DNA of 64,000 bases. Origin: Amphritea atlantica. Its GTDB lineage: Bacteria; Pseudomonadota; Gammaproteobacteria; Pseudomonadales; Balneatricaceae. Within the stretch, counting starts at the first letter, position 1, and each line of letters begins with the position of its first letter. Shown one piece after another: positions 21,054 through 60,517 of this stretch. The stretch spans positions 1 through 64,000 of the forward strand of contig CP073344.1 in NCBI GenBank assembly GCA_024397875.1. Direction: 5' to 3'. The position numbers were made by a program, and so were the translations under genes. The notes beneath the pieces are model-generated. The model had not been told where the DNA came from. It saw nothing but the letters and a program-made list of their open reading frames with translations, and made no database searches.

Positions 21054-21185
21054 TTGAATTTACCGGTGTGGCTCAGGCGACACTGGTAATCTGACGTTGA
21101 ACTGAAAATATGCTCGGTACAACGCGACTATCAATCCACCACACACATATAGCGTGGTGTGCATATTACTTTTGGAGTTATTAAA

Positions 21186-21455
21186 ATGGCATTATCTGTT
21201 GAAAAGAAAGCTGAGATCGTTGCTGAGTACGCTCGTGGCGAAGGCGACACTGGTTCACCTGAAGTACAGGTTGCTCTGCTGACCCACAACATCGTTGGTC
21301 TGCAGTCTCACTTTAAAGGTCACATCCATGACCACCATTCTCGTCGCGGTCTGATCCGCATGGTAAACCAGCGTCGTAAGCTGCTGGACTACCTGAAGAA
21401 GAAAGATGTAACGCGTTACGCTGATCTGATCAAGCGTCTCGGCCTGCGTCGTTAA
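21186..21455 (+). CDS. rpsO: 30S ribosomal protein S15
   Basis: S15 (89 aa), a primary 16S rRNA-binding protein. The family core [11 protein letters not shown] ([23 protein letters not shown]) is intact. ATG 21186 (MALSVEKK) is chosen, with a GGAG site 8 nt upstream. The 132-nt leader contains a CACCAC/GTGGTG hairpin (21137-21159) just before the ribosome site, a plausible location for S15 autoregulation known in E. coli. Confidence 0.97.
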
Positions 21456-33627: not shown

Positions 33628-34131
33628 CTAAATTCGTTCGAGAGAGCCTTTGTCGCACGCTTTAAGGCATTCGGCGAGACTTTTCTGCTCCGGAATGTGC
33701 ACCTGAGGTGCAATTTCTGCCAGGGGATAGAGCACAAAACTGCGCTCATGAAGATAGGGGTGGGGCACGGTTAATCGTTCATGAGTGATCTGTTGGTCAC
33801 CATAGAGCAGCAGATCAAGATCCAGCGTGCGCGGTCCCCAGTGCTGAATTCTGACCCGCTGGTGTTGTTGCTCGAGTGCCTGCATTGCATCAAGCAGTTC
33901 GAGGGGACGAAGGGTGGTTTCCAGGCTGGCGACAGCGTTGATATAGTCAGGCTGGCCGGCAGGACCAACCGGATCGCTACGATACAGGCTGGAATGAACC
34001 AGATTGCGGCAACCATCCAGACGTTCCAGCTCCAGCAGTGCGGTGACAACCTGAGTGACCGGATTTTCAAGGTTACTCCCCAGCCCTATATAGCAGCGGG
34101 TCCATGGGGTGAGGGCCGGAGATTCAGCCAT
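33628..34131 (-). CDS. folK: 2-amino-4-hydroxy-6-hydroxymethyldihydropteridine diphosphokinase
   Basis: HPPK (167 aa), pyrophosphorylates hydroxymethyl-dihydropterin to make the FolP substrate. It shows YIGLGSNLENP at the N-terminus and the signature GPRTLDLDLLLYG with PHPYLHERSFVLYPL. ATG 34131 is chosen; a longer in-frame version would extend into pcnB without family support. It overlaps the pcnB 3' end by 8 nt. Confidence 0.95.
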   Translation of the reverse strand: MAESPALTPWTRCYIGLGSNLENPVTQVVTALLELERLDGCRNLVHSSLYRSDPVGPAGQPDYINAVASLETTLRPLELLDAMQALEQQHQRVRIQHWGPRTLDLDLLLYGDQQITHERLTVPHPYLHERSFVLYPLAEIAPQVHIPEQKSLAECLKACDKGSLERI

Positions 34132-35536
34132 TATTCTGTTCGTGCTTCTTTGTCGGTGAGCGGCGTCTGCGACGTCGCTTGGGAGGCTCGTCTTTGGTCG
34201 CTTCACGGGACATATGACTGCGGATCTGTGGGTTCTGTGTCTGGTAGTCGGTCCACCATTTACCCAGCCCTTCTAAATCCTCGCCACTGTTTTCACGCAG
34301 CACCAGCAGGTCATAAGCCGCCCTGAAGCGCGGGTGTTCCATCAGCCGGTCGGCGCGTTTGCCCTGACGGCGGGGCAGGCGGAACTGCAACTCCCAGATC
34401 TCTCTGATTGGTGTGGAGAAACGGCGGGGAATGGCTGTCTGACTAATCTGCTTGCCAATCACCTGATTCGCGGCTTCGTGCATCGCCGGTACCGTATGCA
34501 TCCCCTCCTGTTGTTGCAATTTAGCCATCCGCTGCTGCATTGGATACCAGAGCAGTGCGGCAAACAGAAAGGCGGGGGTTACACTTTTATCCTGTTGAAT
34601 ACGGCGATCGGTATTCTGCAGTGCGTTGAGCACCAGCTGTTCTACCGGAGCGTCTCCGGGGTTTTCAAGGCAGTAGGCAGTCTGGCTGAAAACATGCTCC
34701 AACAAACCGTATTTGCGAAACTGATGGTAGGACTCAACACCATGTCCGGACTGGAAGATTTTAAGGACTTCATCGAACAACCGGGCCGGAGCGATATCAT
34801 TGAGCAGGTATCCCAGCTCATACAACGGGGCTTCAGTTTCCGTTTCAATACTAAAACCGAGCTTGGCGGCAAAGCGTGCCGCTCGCAGCATGCGTACCGG
34901 ATCTTCCCGATAGCGGGCATCGGGGTCGCCGATCATGCGCAGGGTGCGGTGTTTGAGGTCACTGAAGCCGTTAGTAAAGTCGTAGACACAGTGGTCTTTA
35001 GGGCAGTAATAGAGAGCATTTACCGTGAAGTCGCGTCGCAGTGCATCCTCTTCTATGGTGCCATAAACATTATCGCGAACAATCATGCCGCTGTCGTTCT
35101 GTCGCCCATGTTCGCCATCGCTGTTCTTGGGATGACTATCATGGCTGGCGCGGAAGGTGGCGACTTCGATCATGTCCCGTCCAAACCGGACATGGAGCAG
35201 TTTAAAGCGCCGGCCGATCAGACGTGAGCGACGGAATAGCGCATGGGCCTGTTCCGGTGTGGCATTGGTTGCAACATCAAAATCTTTGGGATGTTTGTTC
35301 ATCAGCAGATCACGGATGCAACCACCGACCAGATAACCTTCGTAGCCTTCATCCTGCAGATGGTAAGCGGTTTTCATCGCCGCGTCGTTCAGCTGTCGGC
35401 GGGGAATCTGATGAACCTCTTCAGGAATTAGCTGAGGGCCGCAGGTTTGCGTGCTGACTTCGCCGGATGGGCGTTTTCGATTACTACCGAACAATTTACG
35501 GATAAACGAGCCTATAGGTGATGAGTTTTTGTCCAT
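34124..35536 (-). CDS. pcnB: Poly(A) polymerase I
   Basis: PcnB (470 aa) adds poly(A) tails to RNA 3' ends and so promotes decay. The class II nucleotidyltransferase motif GGCIRDLLMNKHPKDFDVATNA supplies the catalytic Asp pair, RRDFTVNALYY and the RFAAKLGF motif follow. The C-terminal tail is strongly basic (KRRRRRRSPTKKHEQNNG), a likely RNA-binding extension. It lies downstream of the sRNA candidate between it and cbrB, as in Pseudomonas. Confidence 0.95.
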   Translation of the reverse strand: MDKNSSPIGSFIRKLFGSNRKRPSGEVSTQTCGPQLIPEEVHQIPRRQLNDAAMKTAYHLQDEGYEGYLVGGCIRDLLMNKHPKDFDVATNATPEQAHALFRRSRLIGRRFKLLHVRFGRDMIEVATFRASHDSHPKNSDGEHGRQNDSGMIVRDNVYGTIEEDALRRDFTVNALYYCPKDHCVYDFTNGFSDLKHRTLRMIGDPDARYREDPVRMLRAARFAAKLGFSIETETEAPLYELGYLLNDIAPARLFDEVLKIFQSGHGVESYHQFRKYGLLEHVFSQTAYCLENPGDAPVEQLVLNALQNTDRRIQQDKSVTPAFLFAALLWYPMQQRMAKLQQQEGMHTVPAMHEAANQVIGKQISQTAIPRRFSTPIREIWELQFRLPRRQGKRADRLMEHPRFRAAYDLLVLRENSGEDLEGLGKWWTDYQTQNPQIRSHMSREATKDEPPKRRRRRRSPTKKHEQNNG

Positions 35537-35595
35537 ATCTCACTGAGAAACTTACGTAGAAATAAGAGCGCAGAATAATAGCATGAAATTCAATC

Positions 35596-35889
35596 AAAAA
35601 ATGCAGTTTACGCCGCAGTTTTACTGATCTTTAGTGCAAGCAGGATATGAGTAATAGGAGGGCAAAAGTAGATGGGTAAGCTGACCGCTTTTAGACAACA
35701 ACTATGTCTTAGCTTGTTGTTTTTATTTCTAAGAGCACTGTTTCGGGACCGTTGTATTGGGTGTCAATCCAGCGATCAGCTTTTAGAGCCTCATTTTTAT
35801 TTTTATTCGAGGCAGGTTACTTATCGGCTCATAATCTGGGTTTTATTTTTATTATGATTATTGGCGGTAAGTATTGTTCTTCTTCTTGC
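35596..35889 (-). ncRNA. crcZ: CrcZ-like Hfq/Crc-sequestering small RNA (candidate)
   Basis: The minus strand from about 35889 has no credible ORF but carries A-rich Crc/Hfq-type motifs: AAGAAGAAGAACAA (35874-35887), CAATAATCATAATAAAAAT (in 35841-35863), and two displayed in hairpin loops. These are AATAAAAATAAAAAT within CCTC/GAGG (35789-35812) and AAATAAAAACAACAAG within CTTAG/CTAAG (35708-35733). It follows a sigma-54 promoter, and cbrB lies upstream and pcnB downstream, exactly where Pseudomonas encodes CrcZ. The 3' end is set tentatively at a T6 run (35596-35601) after a weak 5-bp stem. Primary sequence similarity to CrcZ could not be tested. Confidence 0.75.
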
Positions 35890-35900
35890 CCGTATATAGA

Positions 35901-35915
35901 GCAGTTGTTGTGCCA
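35901..35915 (-). promoter_or_regulatory. Sigma-54 promoter of the sRNA
   Basis: Minus strand reads TGGCAC-AACAA-CTGC, followed by T. GG and GC are separated by exactly 10 nt, and there is one mismatch to TGGCAC-N5-TTGCW. Start expected about 12 nt downstream, near 35889. Confidence 0.75.
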
Positions 35916-35966
35916 GTTTTTGTAAGTATTTGTTTTTATTGTGCTTGATGTTTTGAGTTGCCGTTT

Positions 35967-35996
35967 TGTTACCCTGTACTCGCGAGGAGGGTAACA
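35967..35996 (-). promoter_or_regulatory. CbrB-type upstream activating palindrome
   Basis: TGTTACCCT/AGGGTAACA, a perfect 9-bp inverted repeat with a 12-nt centre, about 80-105 nt upstream of the predicted sRNA start. TGTTAC...GTAACA palindromes are the recognised CbrB target type at Pseudomonas crcZ; from memory the spacer there is near 14, here it is 18. Confidence 0.65.
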
Positions 35997-36001
35997 AAAA
36001 G

Positions 36002-36050
36002 TGTTACCTTTTTACTCATGCTGCATCTGCGTAGTGGGGGATAAGTAACA
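36002..36050 (-). promoter_or_regulatory. Second TGTTAC/GTAACA half-site pair
   Basis: GTAACA at 36045-36050 and TGTTAC at 36002-36007 (plus strand) add two further half-sites 3' of the cbrB gene. Together with 35967-35996 this gives four half-sites in 84 bp, consistent with cooperative binding of an NtrC-type activator. Confidence 0.5.
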
Positions 36051-36089
36051 CTTCTGAAATCTTTCCTGTCCAGCAGGAAGTGGCCCTCG

Positions 36090-37490
36090 TTACGCTTCTT
36101 TAGACTTTCGTGGAATGCCCAGCTTCTGACGGCGCTCCCATAAACACTTGCGGCTGACACCCAGCTTTTTAGCCAGTTTGGTTTCACTCATACTGTCCTG
36201 GTTTTCCAGCACGAAGCGCTGGAAGTAATCATCCAGAGAGAGGTTTTGCTCTGGTCGGCGTTCTCTGAGGTCAATGTCGCTTTCCGCTACCAGTGAATGG
36301 CCACTGGCAAAACTGGATTCCAGTTCAGCAAGGGAGCCCGATTCGATATCCAGTCCCAGCAGGTCAGTGGTGATGCTGTGATCGTCAGCCAGAATAACCG
36401 CCCGTTCGATGGCGTTTTGCAGTTCCCGCACATTACCCGGCCAGTTATAGCGAATCATCGTCTGGCAGGCATCTGCACTGAAACTGAGCAGCGGGGAGCC
36501 AAGCTTTTCGCAGCTCTTTTGTAAAAACTGCTGGGCGATCTCGATAATATCCTCACCCCGTTGCCGTAGCGGCGGCATCTGCAGTTCCATTACATAGAGC
36601 CGGTAGTACAGATCCTCGCGGAACTCTCCGGTCTTGGCCAGCGCTTTCAGATTGCGGTGAGTTGCAGCAATAAGGCGGACGTCGACATTGATCGATTTAA
36701 CTGCACCGACTCTGCGGATCTCGCCCTCCTGTAAAAATCGTAACAGCCGTGCCTGAGCTTCCAGAGGCAGTTCGCCAATCTCATCGAGAAACAGGGTGCC
36801 GCCATGGGCCGCTTCGATCAAACCGTTGCGGGCAGAATCAGCGCCGGTAAAAGCCCCTTTTTCGTGGCCAAACAGCTCTGATTCTATCAGCGTTTCCGGA
36901 ATGGATGCGCAGTTAACCGATACCATTGGCGAACCTGAACGGTCACTCTGCTGGTGGATGGCTCTGGCCGCCAGCTCTTTGCCTGTGCCGGACTCTCCCT
37001 GGATCAGGACGGTAGCATCGGTTCGGGCGACTTTTTGAATTCGGCTAAAGAGATTTTTCATCGCTGCGCAGTTGCCGACCATCTGGTTTTCCGGGGTCGG
37101 CTGGGAATTTCCATCTTGCTGAGTAGTTTTGTCCTCGGCTCCGCGTAGTCGGATGATATTGGCGATGGTTTCCAGTATTTCGTCGTGATCAAAGGGTTTG
37201 GCGATATAGTCGACCGCACCCAGTTTCATCGCATCCACCGCGGAGCGCATACTGGCGTAACTGGTCATAATGACTACCGGAACCGCTTTGGCCAGGTTAA
37301 TCAGGTCGGTGCCCGGTGCGCCAGGCAGGCGCAGATCACTGATGATCAGGTTATAGTCGTTGAGATTGAACTGACTGGTTGCTTCGTCGACAGACCCTGC
37401 GTCGTCAACATTGTAATTGTTGCGCTCCAGCAATCGCCGGAGGGCAGAACGTATAATAGACTCATCTTCTACGATCAGAATGCGGCTCAT
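36090..37490 (-). CDS. cbrB: Sigma-54-dependent response regulator CbrB
   Basis: 466 aa NtrC-family activator. The receiver domain (1-120) has Asp in ISDLRLPG and Lys in AKPFD. The AAA domain has Walker A GESGTGKE, the sigma-54 contact GAFTGA and Walker [10 protein letters not shown]. The C-terminal Fis-type HTH is [24 protein letters not shown]. In Pseudomonas CbrB activates crcZ for growth on poor carbon sources. It follows cbrA by 56 nt. Confidence 0.93.
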
Positions 37491-37546: not shown

Positions 37547-40450
37547 TTAATCCTGCAAAGTGACCGGGAGGGTGATAACCACCTGAGTGCCATTGTTCTG
37601 ATTTTTATTGGCGGGACTCACTATGCGTATACTACCATAATGCTCCTCAATGATGTTATAGACCAAAGGCAGCCCTAATCCGGTTCCTTTGCCGGGATCT
37701 TTGGTAGTAAAGAACGGTTCAAACAGTTTGTTCTGATGCTCCGGAGCGATCCCCGTACCCTCGTCGTTAACGGTGATCTCGATTGAGTTAGCGGTCTGCT
37801 TCGCTTCGAGCCACACCCTGCCATGAGGGGGGGAGGCATCACAGGCATTATTGATCAGATTGACAAACACCTGCATCAGTCGTTGTAGGTCTCCACTGAT
37901 ATTGATCGCAGCATCAATATTGTTGATCAGTTTAATCTCCCTTCCCCGGCTGTCCATCGATACCAGGTGAAGCGCTTCGCTGGTTAGCTCTTTGAGGTTT
38001 ATGTTTTCCTGGAGTTGTTGGCTGTCAGTCTGGCCGGTATGAGCAAAACGGATCAGCGACTGCACTATACGGGTGATGCGGTTGGTCTGGGCCACAATCT
38101 GTTCACCGCTTTCGAGGATGATCTCATCATCGGTCTCATATTTCAGATTTTGTGCCAGGCAGGCGATCCCGGTGACTGGATTGCCGATCTCATGTGCCAC
38201 GCCGGCAGCAAAGCGGCCAATCGACGCGAGTCGTTCGTTGTGAGACAGGCGGTTCACCAGAATCTGGTTTTCGGTTTCATTTTCCAGCAGGATCACCATC
38301 GACTCAGAGTTTTCAGCCAGACTGGCTTTGTGCAGGCTTAGCCAACAGTTCTCTTCGTTGATTAGCAGATGGTGCGAGAGCAGGTGGTTTTGCTCCTGAG
38401 TTGAAAAGTTATTCAGTAGTTCGCCCCAGGGCGCGGGCAGGCTGATTAGTTTTCGGGTTAAGACTGATGAGCTCTGCAATCCGGTAAATTGTTCCATCTC
38501 CTCGTTCCAGAAAATGATCTGCCCCTTTTCGTCCAGTGAGCAGGCGCCGACGGGTAAGCGTTGCAGCGTCATGCGGTGGTGGCGGCGCAAATTATCCAGT
38601 TCGGCAGCCAGACCGCTGAGCCGGGTCTGATAGTTTTCCAGTTGCCCCTCCAGCAGATGGATGTCCCGGGTGCGGTATTGATCTGGTGTACCCTTGCGAA
38701 CCTGCTGATTTAGCAGTGCGCTGGCCTCAACCGGCCCAAATACCGCGCTGAGGCGGCTTTCAATCAGGGTTCGCAGGCGCATAAGGTCGATGGCATTCAA
38801 CTCGCCACTGCGCAGGTTCAGTTCCTGCAGGGCCTGTTCAACTTCCTTCTGAGCGGTTGTTTTACCCAGGCGAGAGCTGAGTAAAGTCACCAGCTCATCG
38901 CTGTGACTGATGCTAAGCTGAGGTCCGACTGGGCGTTGCAAGCTGTTATGCAGGCAAGCGCTGGCGCTGGCGATCTCTTCCGGTGAGCTGCGTGTCAGAA
39001 TGGAGGCCAGCAGAAACACGATAATGTTTGCTGTGAGTGCGTAGATCGCAATCTGATGCCAGCTCTGATGATACATAATTGATGTTGCATCGCTGATGCT
39101 GCCGTTCAGCAAGGCGCTGAGCATCGGGAAAATCCAGATACTCATGCCCACAATAAGTCCGAGGCTGAAGCCTGTGCGGTTGGCTCCTGGCCAGAACAGT
39201 GTCGCGAGGATGCCCGGCAGGAACTGCATAAAGGCAATAAACGCCAGAGTGCCCAGCCAGTGGATGTTGTAGTTCAGACCGACCTCGGTGTAGAACAGAT
39301 AGCTTCCCAGCATCATAACGATAATGAGTATCCGTCTGAGCCATAGCAGCCGCGAATAGAGCTTTTGCGTCGACAGAGGCGGGACCAGTGGCAGAATAAG
39401 ATGGTTCTGCAGCATTGATGCGATTGATATGGTGGACACAATGATGATGCCACTGGCAGCGGTCAGTCCACCGATAAAGGCCAGTGTTGTGAGGAAATTG
39501 GACTCCAGCTTTATCCCCAGATTGAGAATCAGGAATGCCGGTTGATCGGCAACCCCCAGCCGGATGCCCGCCCATAGAATTGGGGGAACCGCCAGCGCCA
39601 GGATCAGCAGGTAGAGGGGGACGCCCCAACTGGCTTTATGCAGACTGTTGGATGAGGTGTTTTCGGTAAACAGCATATGGAAGGTGTGAGGCATCACAAT
39701 AATGGCTGAGAAAAATCCCAGCAGCATGGTGCGCCACAGATTGCTGTCCAGCTGAGTATCGAATACCGCCAGCTCTTCCGGATGCTGCTGCAGCCAGAGT
39801 TCCAGTCCGTGCGGGCCGCCCATCACATTGAATAGTGCGTATAGCGCAATGGTTACAAGGGCGAACAGCTTTATCAGTGATCCCGTTGCCATCGCCACAA
39901 TCAGACCGGTGCGGTTATAGCGCAATGAGGGGTTGCGGGCCCCTGCCAGAATTGAAAACAGAGCGATCAGGGTACAGAAGCCGACGGCGATCTGGTCTGA
40001 AGAAAAATCCTGGTTAAGAATATGCAGTGAATCTGATACCGCCTGAATCTGAATTGAGATCAGTGGCAGAATGGCAATCAGTGAAAAGAATGCCGTGAGT
40101 GCCCCGGCAGTGGCTGAACGAAAGCGGAAAGCGAACAGGTCGGCCAGCGAACTTAACTGATAGGTTCTGGTGATGCGCAGAATCGGGATCAGTATAACCG
40201 GCGCCAGAAAGAAGGCTGCTGAAGCGCCGAGATAAGATGCCAGAAAGCTATAACCGGACTCTTTGGCGATGGCGAATGTGCCGTAAAAGGTCCAGACGCT
40301 GGTGAATACCCCCAGTGACAGGACGTAGGTAACCGGATGATAGATGATACGTTTCGAAACCCAGCCCCGCTCGGTGATGTAGGCGGTACCAAACAGTGCA
40401 GTCAGGTAGGCGATGGCGATGAGCAGCAGTTCGATCAGATTAAAATTCAT
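37547..40450 (-). CDS. cbrA: SLC5-type sensor histidine kinase CbrA
   Basis: 967 aa. Residues about 1-490 form a multi-helix sodium:solute-symporter-like membrane domain. A STAC-like linker follows (about 505-600), then a PAS-like domain (about 640-720), HisKA with the phospho-His in VAHEIGNPVTG (about 755), and HATPase with NLINNACDA, DEGTGIAPEH and GTGLGLPLVYNI. The symporter-kinase fusion is diagnostic of CbrA; in Pseudomonas the domain transports histidine. Its start overlaps the upstream small gene by 11 nt. Confidence 0.93.
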   Translation of the reverse strand: MNFNLIELLLIAIAYLTALFGTAYITERGWVSKRIIYHPVTYVLSLGVFTSVWTFYGTFAIAKESGYSFLASYLGASAAFFLAPVILIPILRITRTYQLSSLADLFAFRFRSATAGALTAFFSLIAILPLISIQIQAVSDSLHILNQDFSSDQIAVGFCTLIALFSILAGARNPSLRYNRTGLIVAMATGSLIKLFALVTIALYALFNVMGGPHGLELWLQQHPEELAVFDTQLDSNLWRTMLLGFFSAIIVMPHTFHMLFTENTSSNSLHKASWGVPLYLLILALAVPPILWAGIRLGVADQPAFLILNLGIKLESNFLTTLAFIGGLTAASGIIIVSTISIASMLQNHLILPLVPPLSTQKLYSRLLWLRRILIIVMMLGSYLFYTEVGLNYNIHWLGTLAFIAFMQFLPGILATLFWPGANRTGFSLGLIVGMSIWIFPMLSALLNGSISDATSIMYHQSWHQIAIYALTANIIVFLLASILTRSSPEEIASASACLHNSLQRPVGPQLSISHSDELVTLLSSRLGKTTAQKEVEQALQELNLRSGELNAIDLMRLRTLIESRLSAVFGPVEASALLNQQVRKGTPDQYRTRDIHLLEGQLENYQTRLSGLAAELDNLRRHHRMTLQRLPVGACSLDEKGQIIFWNEEMEQFTGLQSSSVLTRKLISLPAPWGELLNNFSTQEQNHLLSHHLLINEENCWLSLHKASLAENSESMVILLENETENQILVNRLSHNERLASIGRFAAGVAHEIGNPVTGIACLAQNLKYETDDEIILESGEQIVAQTNRITRIVQSLIRFAHTGQTDSQQLQENINLKELTSEALHLVSMDSRGREIKLINNIDAAINISGDLQRLMQVFVNLINNACDASPPHGRVWLEAKQTANSIEITVNDEGTGIAPEHQNKLFEPFFTTKDPGKGTGLGLPLVYNIIEEHYGSIRIVSPANKNQNNGTQVVITLPVTLQD

Positions 40451-40616
40451 CGCTGCGGCGTCTCCGTTCCAGTATGGCTACCAGCAGAATAAGGACTGCC
40501 CAGATAATATAGGGCCTGTACCAGGGGGTGGCAGAATCGGGCCACCACTGATCGAGAAGCGGTGATAACAGGTATCCACCAATGACCAGTACGATCAGGA
40601 CACGGTAAAAATGCAT
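40440..40616 (-). CDS. cbrX: Small membrane protein CbrX, overlapping cbrA
   Basis: 58 aa, read on the minus strand from ATG 40616: MHFYRVLIVLVIGGYLLSPL at the start, a WWP turn, and a second hydrophobic stretch YIIWAVLILLVAILE, ending RRRRSDEF. Two predicted membrane segments. The ATG overlaps the gluQRS stop (TAATG), and the 3' end overlaps the cbrA start by 11 nt. A small coupled ORF named cbrX occupies this position in Pseudomonas putida; the name here rests on position and topology. Confidence 0.8.
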   Translation of the reverse strand: MHFYRVLIVLVIGGYLLSPLLDQWWPDSATPWYRPYIIWAVLILLVAILERRRRSDEF

Positions 40617-41491
40617 TAGTTATCCTCCAGAATGATACCCGTTTGCTTCGGAATCGCCGTGATGTCCCAGTGCGTAGTTGCCCAGCACAGGCACTCTTCG
40701 ATGGTGCCATCGGCTAATTCTGCCACGGGTTGCTGGCCAAGAAAATCCAGTGCGCGGATGGTCAGTTGTAGCGCCTGACGCTCATCCAGAGCCGGGGCCA
40801 GCGTCTGTTTACTGAGTTTCTGTCCCTGTCTGTTGGTTGCTACGGGAATGTGCGCGTACACCGGCTGACGGTAACCCAGCTTTTGTTGCAGGTGTATCTG
40901 TTTCGGGGTTGAGTCGAGCAGGTCTGAGCCGCGGACAATATGGCTGATCTGTTGTGCCGCATCATCAATGGTGACGGCCAGCTGATAGGCGAAAAAACCA
41001 TCCCTGCGGAAAATAACAAAATCTTCAGTCAGATTGCTGAACTGCTGATGTCCCTGAATCAGGTCATCGAACGGGTAATCCTGGTCGCAGCGAATGCGCA
41101 TGGCGCAGCGTGCTCCGGTCATTGGCGGGTGACTGCGACAATGGCGGTCATACAGTGGGTTGCTACTGCGTTTCTGAATCTGTTGTCGGGAGCAGCTGCA
41201 TCGATAGGCAGCGCCGCTATTACTCAGTTGGGACAGAATATCATTGTAGATAGCGAGTCGGTCGCTTTGACGAATCACTTCACCATCCCAGTGCAGACCA
41301 AACTGTTCAAGTGTTCTGAAAATACTATCAGTAGCCCCTTCAGCCTCGCGGGGAGGATCGAGGTCTTCGATGCGTAACAGCCAAAGGCCATTATGTGCGC
41401 GGGCGTCGAGATAGCTGGCAACTGCGGCCAGAAGGGAGCCGAAATGGAGCGGGCCAGTGGGTGAGGGAGCGAAACGACCGGTATAGACCAT
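40616..41491 (-). CDS. gluQ: tRNA-Asp glutamyl-queuosine synthetase
   Basis: GluQRS (291 aa), a truncated glutamyl-tRNA synthetase paralogue that attaches Glu to queuosine in tRNA-Asp. The HIGH-equivalent is SPTGPLHFGSL, the zinc site is YRCSCSRQQ with LYDRHCR, and the KMSKS-equivalent is KLSKQ. It lacks the anticodon-binding domain, as the family does. It lies between dksA and cbrX, as in Pseudomonas. Confidence 0.95.
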   Translation of the reverse strand: MVYTGRFAPSPTGPLHFGSLLAAVASYLDARAHNGLWLLRIEDLDPPREAEGATDSIFRTLEQFGLHWDGEVIRQSDRLAIYNDILSQLSNSGAAYRCSCSRQQIQKRSSNPLYDRHCRSHPPMTGARCAMRIRCDQDYPFDDLIQGHQQFSNLTEDFVIFRRDGFFAYQLAVTIDDAAQQISHIVRGSDLLDSTPKQIHLQQKLGYRQPVYAHIPVATNRQGQKLSKQTLAPALDERQALQLTIRALDFLGQQPVAELADGTIEECLCWATTHWDITAIPKQTGIILEDN

Positions 41492-41527: not shown

Positions 41528-41956
41528 TCAGATACCGAGCTGTTTCTCTTTGATCTCAGCCAGTGTTTTGCAGTCAATGCAGAGGGTTGCTGTCGGACGT
41601 GCTTCCAGACGTCGCACACCGATCTCTACACCGCAGGCGTCGCAATAGCCGTAATCATCTTCGTCGATGCTTTCCATCGCCTTAGATATCTTGTTGATCA
41701 GCTTACGTTCCCGGTCCCGGGTGCGCAGTTCCAGGCTGAACTCCTCTTCCTGGCTGGCTCGATCGCTGGGATCAGCAAAGTTGGTTGCTTCTTCCTGCAA
41801 ATGGTTAACGGTACGGTCTACCTCTTCCATCAGCTCCTGTTTCCAGGCGTTCAGAATTTGGCGGAAATGATCTTTTTGAGCTTCGTTCATGTACTCTTCG
41901 CCATCCTTAATCGGATAGGGTACAAAGTGTGTGAACTGTGTTTCTTGATTCGGCAT
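41528..41956 (-). CDS. dksA: RNA polymerase-binding factor DksA
   Basis: DksA (142 aa) binds the RNA polymerase secondary channel and works with ppGpp in the stringent response. The coiled-coil tip DPSDRA (DxxDxA) and the four-Cys zinc finger CDACG...CIDC are complete. Length is slightly below the E. coli protein (151 aa). Not a Cys-less paralogue. Confidence 0.96.
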
Positions 41957-59958: not shown

Positions 59959-60000
59959 TTATCCCGGTTGGCTGAGCTGCTCCCAAAAAAAAGAGATAAA

Positions 60001-60034
60001 AAAAGGGCAAACCCCGCAAGGTTTGCCCTTTTTT
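60001..60034. terminator. Bidirectional terminator dnr/csp
   Basis: 13-bp perfect stem AAAAGGGCAAACC/GGTTTGCCCTTTT with a 6-nt loop between the convergent dnr and cold-shock genes. Confidence 0.93.
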
Positions 60035-60049
60035 AAATGGAGCTATCGA

Positions 60050-60259
60050 TCAGATAGCTACAATGTTCTCAGCCTGAGGACCCTTAGGACCACTGGTAAC
60101 GGTAAACTGTACTTGCTGGCCTTCTGCCAGAGTTTTGAAACCATCGCTGACGATTGCGCTGAAGTGAGCGAAAACATCGGGACCGGATAGTTGCTCGATG
60201 AAACCAAAACCTTTAGTTTCGTTGAACCATTTAACCGTGCCAGTCGTTGTATTAGACAT
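60050..60259 (-). CDS. Cold-shock protein (CspA family)
   Basis: 69 aa single cold-shock domain with RNP1 KGFGFIEQ and RNP2 VFAHFSAI, an RNA chaperone. ATG 60259 is chosen (AGGATA site; the family begins about six residues before TGTVKWFN). The gap 60260-60517 has no gene; an extended leader, common for csp genes, could lie there. Confidence 0.93.
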
Positions 60260-60517
60260 AATAATATCCTGAAATATAAATAAAGTAGTGCCTTCAAAAG
60301 GCTTGAATTGCATCAAAATGTAGACTGAGACTTAGAAACTGCAGGACGTGGTGTTACGAATAAAACAACGAAATGTAGGATGTAAATATGAGACTTCTTT
60401 CTAGCTGCTGATCACTGTATAGAGTTACTCAGTGCCTGTCTATAAGTTTCTGATATTAAATATTTATTGTAGCGGACAATATAACGGACAATGGGAAGTG
60501 CAGTTCAGTATGATTGC

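Follow-up and report, generated by a model that had tools for sequence, protein, structure and literature searches.

CrcZ of Pseudomonas aeruginosa is described as an RNA of 407 nt with six A-rich stretches (PMC4063720). The accompanying CbrA-CbrB system has been called exclusive of pseudomonads (PMC6296734), and a 2022 review, in the excerpt available, regards CbrAB as unique to the Pseudomonadaceae, with no orthologous systems described (PMC8871633). Transcripts of cbrAB have been reported from mesopelagic Atlantic samples (PMC5073097, in the part available), so that annotations of cbrAB outside Pseudomonas may already exist. The open-access literature searched contained no paper on CrcZ in Oceanospirill- (as a search stem), Marinobacter or Alcanivorax and none on CbrAB in Hahella; in one paper on CrcZ (PMC9049629), Halomonas occurs in the reference list only. 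Here we present a candidate RNA from the minus strand of the gap between cbrB and pcnB of Amphritea atlantica, which is very probably a decoy of the CrcZ type. This reading is supported by sequence, conservation, a covarying structure and the presence of the partner genes. New, in our view, are the taxonomic range, the compact form with four blocks and covarying helices, and the persistence of the RNA in genomes without CbrA, CbrB or Crc.

The window, i.e., the whole stretch of 64,000 nucleotides that was analysed, belongs to a genome of 4.55 Mb in two contigs. According to NCBI, Amphritea is a member of the Oceanospirillaceae (the CbrA of another genus member, G009, is 90% identical), which places the locus outside Pseudomonas, as a preliminary description made from the letters alone had supposed. 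On the minus strand, the gene order is dksA, gluQRS, cbrA, cbrB, a gap of 553 bases (35537-36089) and pcnB, and the ORFs beyond pcnB can be read from their sequences as putative folK, panB and panC. The RNA lies on the same strand as both flanking genes, the same placement as in the Pseudomonas loci examined. None of the ORFs in the gap reaches 80 aa (the longest ones listed have 58 codons on the minus strand and 61 on the plus strand), in agreement with the preliminary description. CbrA could be aligned over its full length with 12 relatives, including one from f21, a family that is probably Pseudomonadaceae, judging from Rfam CrcZ scores above 300 bits. CbrX of Pseudomonas is described as a short membrane peptide with translational coupling to cbrA (PMC13022988, in the part available), and a small ORF overlapping the start of cbrA is a candidate counterpart. 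Elsewhere in the window, the Rfam models of the S15 leader (21136-21242) and the cspA thermoregulator (60000-60419) scored above their cut-offs. The features of the locus, together with RNAs of two other genera discussed below, are summarized in Table 1.

Table 1. Features of the cbrB-pcnB locus in the window, and RNAs of two other genera.
Feature	Position	Strand	Evidence or context
dksA	41528-41956	minus	
gluQRS	40616-41491	minus	
CbrX-like ORF of 58 codons, small and membrane-like, that overlaps the start of cbrA	40440-40616	minus	translation; candidate by description
cbrA, sensor kinase (PAS, HisKA and HATPase domains)	37547-40450	minus	ORF and domain search
cbrB, sigma-54 activator with receiver domain	36090-37490	minus	ORF and domain search
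CbrB half-site TGTTAC	36045-36050	minus	motif scan
CbrB half-site GTAACA	36002-36007	minus	motif scan
CbrB half-site TGTTAC	35991-35996	minus	motif scan
CbrB half-site GTAACA	35967-35972	minus	motif scan; 24 bp from the neighbour at 35991-35996
sigma-54 promoter box TGGCAC-N6-TGC, GG-N10-GC, TGGCACAACAACTGC	35901-35915	minus	motif scan; in 17/17 aligned genus sequences
CrcZ-type RNA (probable), conserved part	35677-35889	minus	conservation, fold, covariation; 3' end perhaps as far as about 35596
CA block 1, 14 nt, RNA 5' end	35874-35887	minus	motif scan
CA block 2, 11 nt, predicted hairpin loop 35862-35831	35843-35853	minus	motif scan and fold
CA block 3, 14 nt, hairpin loop 35813-35788 (GCCTC/GAGGC)	35794-35807	minus	motif scan, fold, covariation
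3' domain, closing long-range helix 35780-35771/35689-35680	35680-35780	minus	alignment consensus; 7/10 pairs with two-sided changes in at least one sequence
CA block 4, 14 nt, inside the 3' domain	35714-35727	minus	motif scan and fold
putative pcnB -10, TGCTATTAT, downstream of the RNA	35575-35583	minus	block conserved in genus alignment; missed by consensus promoter scan
pcnB	34124-35536	minus	ORF and domain search
RNAs of genus g4	L236 1502-1695 (G019); L237 1502-1680 (G034)		between gluQRS and pcnB
RNAs of genus g2	L238 1525-1640 (G032); L240/L221 (G017)		near hslU-like ORF

The GG-N10-GC box lies on the minus strand of the gap where the preliminary description had placed it, and from its position the RNA would start at about 35889. 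Four perfect CbrB half-sites upstream of the box are an addition to that description; the mean in shuffled sequences was 0.14, and none of 5000 dinucleotide shuffles reached four. The published consensus of the half-sites is TGTTAC/GTAACA with a spacing of 20-25 bp (PMC6296734, in the part available); the spacings between neighbours in the window are 43, 11 and 24 bp, one of the three (24 bp) falling within the published range.

A CA block is defined here as the AANAANAA motif. Downstream of the box, where four or more A-rich blocks had been announced, four CA blocks were found; they cover 53 nt of the RNA stretch, compared with a shuffled mean of 9.7 (none of 2000 shuffles as high), and one more CA block, not part of the RNA, precedes the box. 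The box together with all four blocks is conserved in each of the 17 Amphritea-genus sequences aligned; the comparison of the same gap in relatives, which the preliminary description had named as a refuting test, therefore turned out in favour of its reading.

The stretch 35655-35876 folds with -47 kcal/mol (z -4.89). When ten RNAs of the window's own family (f1) were folded singly, CA block 1 was found at the free 5' end in seven, and blocks 2, 3 and 4 were found in hairpin loops in nine, eight and four of the ten, respectively, the window RNA not being among the four. Regarding the two loop hairpins that had been proposed, the GCCTC/GAGGC hairpin around block 3 is real and covaries, whereas the CTTAG/CTAAG hairpin (35733-35708) can be drawn but the minimum-energy fold of the window pairs this stretch partly otherwise. 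The loop around block 2 and the long-range helix of the 3' domain had not been described. The consensus structure from an alignment of 25 RNAs comprises 16 pairs, i.e., the block 3 hairpin and the helix spanning about 100 nt; the hairpins of blocks 2 and 4 are absent from it. Within the two helices, nine pairs and 21 cells are changed on both sides, values neither of which was reached by any of 500 shuffles, and no shuffle out of 500 had a covariation score as high. The number of further pair types, one of five covariation measures, was reached by 56 of the 500 shuffles. In the consensus structure 99.7% of the cells are paired, a figure that is favoured by the use of one alignment both for deriving the structure and for counting, and the value falls to 15-44% when the structure is slid by one to three columns.

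The Amphritea genome encodes CbrA, CbrB, Hfq, sigma-54 (RpoN) and Crc. The Crc gene is located on the second contig between ORFs read as pyrE and rph, and the best solved relative of its product is P. aeruginosa Crc (268 bits from the longer start, 267 bits from the inner start); a separate exonuclease III is also encoded. A basic, RNA-contacting patch of Crc residues has been described (PMC9890229, in the part available), and as read from the alignment all six residues (K77, K135, R138, K139, R140 and R141) are kept. Hfq is identical to P. aeruginosa Hfq at 68 of 76 aligned residues. Its residue 25 is F, as opposed to Y in P. aeruginosa, where the exchange Y25D is described in the part of the source available as making Hfq defective in CrcZ binding; from the residues alone, F for Y is a conservative change. 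Position, box, half-sites, CA blocks, Crc, Hfq and RpoN all appear to be in place, consistent with the complete CbrAB-CrcZ switch that had been proposed, and the suggested genome search for crc and hfq recovered both.

The suspicion that homology searches may miss this RNA proved justified. The Rfam model of CrcZ (RF01675) scored 16.5 bits (E 0.03) on the window RNA and did not reach its gathering cut-off of 95, and a search of the own genome with this model yielded no match. Among 293 genomes of the order, it scored above cut-off in 14 (11 from f21 and three from f2) and at E 1 or better in 91, as well as in three of 14 control genomes; the model alone was discarded as a detector of range, as 14 of 293 genomes above cut-off is too narrow. 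A second model, R1, was built from 25 f1 RNAs (the own genome and some other f1 genomes are in the training set) and detects relatives that Rfam misses. It matched all 12 f1 genomes of this sample (E 4.8e-54 to 4.5e-4), one of them (G017) without CbrA, and the own genome gave a single match. With a threshold of E 0.01, it matched 30 of the 293 genomes, i.e., 18 of the 281 beyond f1, and is likewise narrow. Several of the weaker matches lie just downstream of cbrA-cbrB (e.g., in G072, G041 and G082, judging from the distance to the CbrA match, and in G321) and others elsewhere; no match was obtained in G055 or in most genomes outside f1. Because R1 matches Pseudomonas CrcZ weakly (E 2.8e-4 to 0.36 where matched; best score 25.7 bits), the case for common descent depends less on the sequence of the RNA than on its position, its promoter and the CA blocks. 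The CrcZ sequence features that were checked were all found, whereas the score required by the current Rfam model was not reached, and for this reason we would call the RNA a diverged branch of CrcZ.

The spread of the RNA was assessed by a signature, defined as a sigma-54 box followed after 22-60 nt by a CA block, with three or more CA blocks within 400 nt. The limit from the box to the first block was originally 50 nt (126 of 148 gaps) and was widened to 60 nt after inspection of L196 and L197; two of the 148 gaps, shorter than 150 nt, were dropped. Considering all sources, the signature was present in 128 of 146 gaps, which are not all independent because the named loci L111, L123, L182 and L186 repeat sampled genomes, and it occurred in one of 7300 shuffles and on none of the 146 reverse strands. 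Regarding the gaps downstream of cbrB in the sampled genomes, it was found in 55 of 68, representing 20 of 28 families including presumed Pseudomonadaceae (17 of the 68 gaps are from one genus, and the sample includes several MAGs and fragmented genomes). At least two perfect half-sites within 200 nt upstream accompanied 53 of these 55 signatures. In f1, 30 of 31 gaps of CbrA genomes carry the signature. The 13 gaps without it comprise one of f1 (L054, a gap of 204 nt), single gaps of f2, f4, f7, f8, f9, f10 and f18, and all five of f43; the f2 miss is due to a cut contig, Rfam finding CrcZ on another contig of the same genome. Among 80 named loci, the signature was detected in 11 of 17 that are not Pseudomonadaceae according to their titles and in 62 of the 63 others (which include one Pantoea and one Serpens record), where the miss, L156, is a contig end. 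Named carriers outside Pseudomonas include Neptuniibacter, Marinobacterium, Neptunomonas, Motiliproteus, Balneatrix, Bacterioplanes and Bermanella.

CbrA was matched at E 1e-120 or better in 207 of the 293 order genomes and Crc at E 1e-45 or better in 224; by these thresholds, 172 genomes have both, 35 CbrA only and 52 Crc only. CbrA was also matched at the same threshold in 30 of 274 genomes of the class, 27 of them labelled as outside the order; these counts cover CbrA alone.

Several genomes carry extra copies. Two tandem signatures were found in L052, L053, L057, L073 and L076; in L053 there is also a third promoter accompanied by CA blocks, uncounted by the signature, in which CGGCAC replaces TGGCAC. 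In the Bermanella locus L184, two of three boxes pass the signature. G042, inferred to be an Endozoicomonas, has no signature at cbrB, and CA-rich copies accompanied by one or more half-sites occur elsewhere in its genome (L224-L226). The box ends in TTGT instead of TGC in two of these three copies. In L227 (G041), CCAGTT repeats are arrayed in tandem after a CrcZ-like copy.

These copies bear on whether the conserved stretch is a free RNA at all. If the sigma-54 promoter drove pcnB, the stretch would be the leader of the pcnB mRNA, and its CA blocks would place that gene under Hfq/Crc control, with no free sRNA. The RNA does lie on the pcnB strand, and no clear terminator follows the conserved part: the one terminator-like site found in a scan of the gap (35617-35602; 1.3 expected) is no more than chance would give, so that the 3' end of the RNA is only provisional. 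A scan of the gap for sigma-70 promoters found none (1.4 expected), but a -10-like block immediately ahead of pcnB is conserved in the genus, and the stretch between the RNA and pcnB is poorly conserved and variable in length in the genus alignment. The tandem signatures in the five loci named above and in Bermanella would suit separate transcripts, and the G042 copies lie away from cbrB. On this evidence we consider a leader unlikely, and a free decoy RNA is preferred.

A slightly smaller chance is given to the possibility that such a free RNA works mainly by base pairing, with Hfq as its chaperone, and does not titrate Hfq as a decoy. The conservation of the 3' domain within the genus beyond what the mere display of CA blocks would need is in its favour, but the majority of the invariant columns across the family are A positions of the CA blocks, and the variable number of blocks and the tandem copies fit a dosage of binding sites. 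That A-rich intergenic DNA happens to lie beside a chance sigma-54 box can practically be dismissed: the gap is A-rich and the bare block count modest (four versus 1.1 in shuffles, 0.4% of which reach four), but conservation across families, the single occurrence in 7300 shuffles and the covariation argue against it.

As a CrcZ-type decoy, the RNA would act as follows. Upon exhaustion of the preferred carbon source, CbrA would phosphorylate CbrB; CbrB, bound to the TGTTAC/GTAACA half-sites, would activate sigma-54 transcription from about 35889; and the RNA would draw Hfq/Crc off the mRNAs of catabolic genes, whose repression would be lifted. Its transcription, dependence on CbrB, binding of Hfq/Crc and effect on carbon use are what we infer from the sequence.

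The RNA is kept in some genomes in which other parts of the switch are missing; the readings of half-sites, promoter and structure in f27, g4 and g2 are based on two genomes each. The CbrA matches at E 1e-120 in the 293 order genomes include none from f27. In G321 (L222, L233), the order, with dksA and gluQRS named here and in the genus below by reading their ORF sequences, is dksA, gluQRS, cbrB, RNA, pcnB, cbrA being missing between gluQRS and cbrB, and no Pfam receiver domain was found in its CbrB at E 0.001; in G130 (L223), cbrB, RNA and pcnB adjoin. The sigma-54 box, GTAACA half-sites and CA blocks are all kept in both genomes. A plain case of Crc without Cbr was ruled out for f27, as cbrB, the RNA and pcnB were found there.

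In the related genus g4 (G019 and G034), the locus has lost both cbrA and cbrB and reads dksA, gluQRS, RNA, pcnB. A CbrB-grade match is absent from both genomes (the best is 42% over the front part, versus 72% in G028), and the sigma-54 box and half-sites are gone from the RNA loci, although RpoN is still encoded in both. Ahead of ACAACAACAA stands TTGAAT-N17-TATAGT or TTGAAC-N17-TATATT, which we read as a putative sigma-70-like promoter. The g4 RNAs matched R1 at E 2.3e-13 and 1.6e-10 and retain four CA blocks in unchanged order; the G019 RNA folds with z -5.84 and has a block 3 stem of GCTCC/GGAGC, as compared with GCCTC/GAGGC. In genus g2 (G017 and G032), no CbrA-grade or CbrB-grade match was found. 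A shorter RNA located near an hslU-like ORF has two CA hairpins and a strong terminator, and its putative promoter is sigma-70-like; the two RNAs matched R1 at E 4.5e-4 and 4.2e-5, and that of G032 folds with z -4.01. This RNA is possibly an independent Hfq decoy, its descent from CrcZ being unproven.

Crc-grade proteins were not matched in seven tested genomes of two lineages, namely three of four in f29 (identity 26-28%, close to the 29% of the second, non-Crc match in G055) and four of four in f43, probably Alcanivoracaceae in view of a near-identical RNA in an Alloalcanivorax locus (L190 versus L191). All four f29 genomes carry the signature, three of them without a Crc-grade match, which contradicts the idea that genomes lacking Crc always lack CrcZ as well. 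In f43, half-sites and CA blocks remain in five gaps (L191-L195, cf. L190), and the TGGCAC box is missing.

The decoy RNA may be the most persistent part of the switch, its partners being exchangeable. On this reading, to which we give an even chance, it would survive the loss of CbrA (with a CbrB lacking a recognisable receiver), of both CbrA and CbrB (a sigma-70-like promoter being newly acquired), of Crc and of the sigma-54 box; it would then buffer Hfq independently, and carbon control by CbrAB-Crc would be one of several wirings. If the overall reading is true, the switch would be widespread in this gammaproteobacterial order, including marine heterotrophs, with CbrA relatives beyond the order. 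Genomes that have naturally lost CbrA, CbrB or Crc but retain the RNA would allow direct tests of how far the RNA acts via Hfq alone and of what role Crc plays.

Compared with known systems, the window RNA is most like Pseudomonas CrcZ (RF01675), with which it shares the placement between cbrB and pcnB, the sigma-54 box, the CbrB half-sites, several CA blocks with the first at the inferred 5' end, and the presence of Crc and Hfq in the genome. It differs in its length of about 210-295 nt (the 3' end being provisional), in having four CA blocks, in its occurrence in the Oceanospirillaceae and in scoring below the Rfam cut-off. CrcY and CrcX of Pseudomonas, as described in the parts of the sources available, resemble the extra copies in that a single genome has further decoys of this kind, whereas in several Amphritea relatives the extra copies are in tandem at the cbrB locus and the window genome has one R1 match. 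RsmY and RsmZ titrate a translational repressor through repeated motifs, and the RNA taking up such a repressor is the likeness to the present case; titration of RsmA by RNA is described in the literature, as far as the available parts go. The RsmA-binding motif is GGA, whereas the window RNA would use AANAANAA for Hfq. Finally, sRNA99 of Acinetobacter baumannii, likened here by description from the part of the source available, shows CrcZ-like behaviour in Hfq RIL-seq and has three A-rich motifs (PMC12802169).
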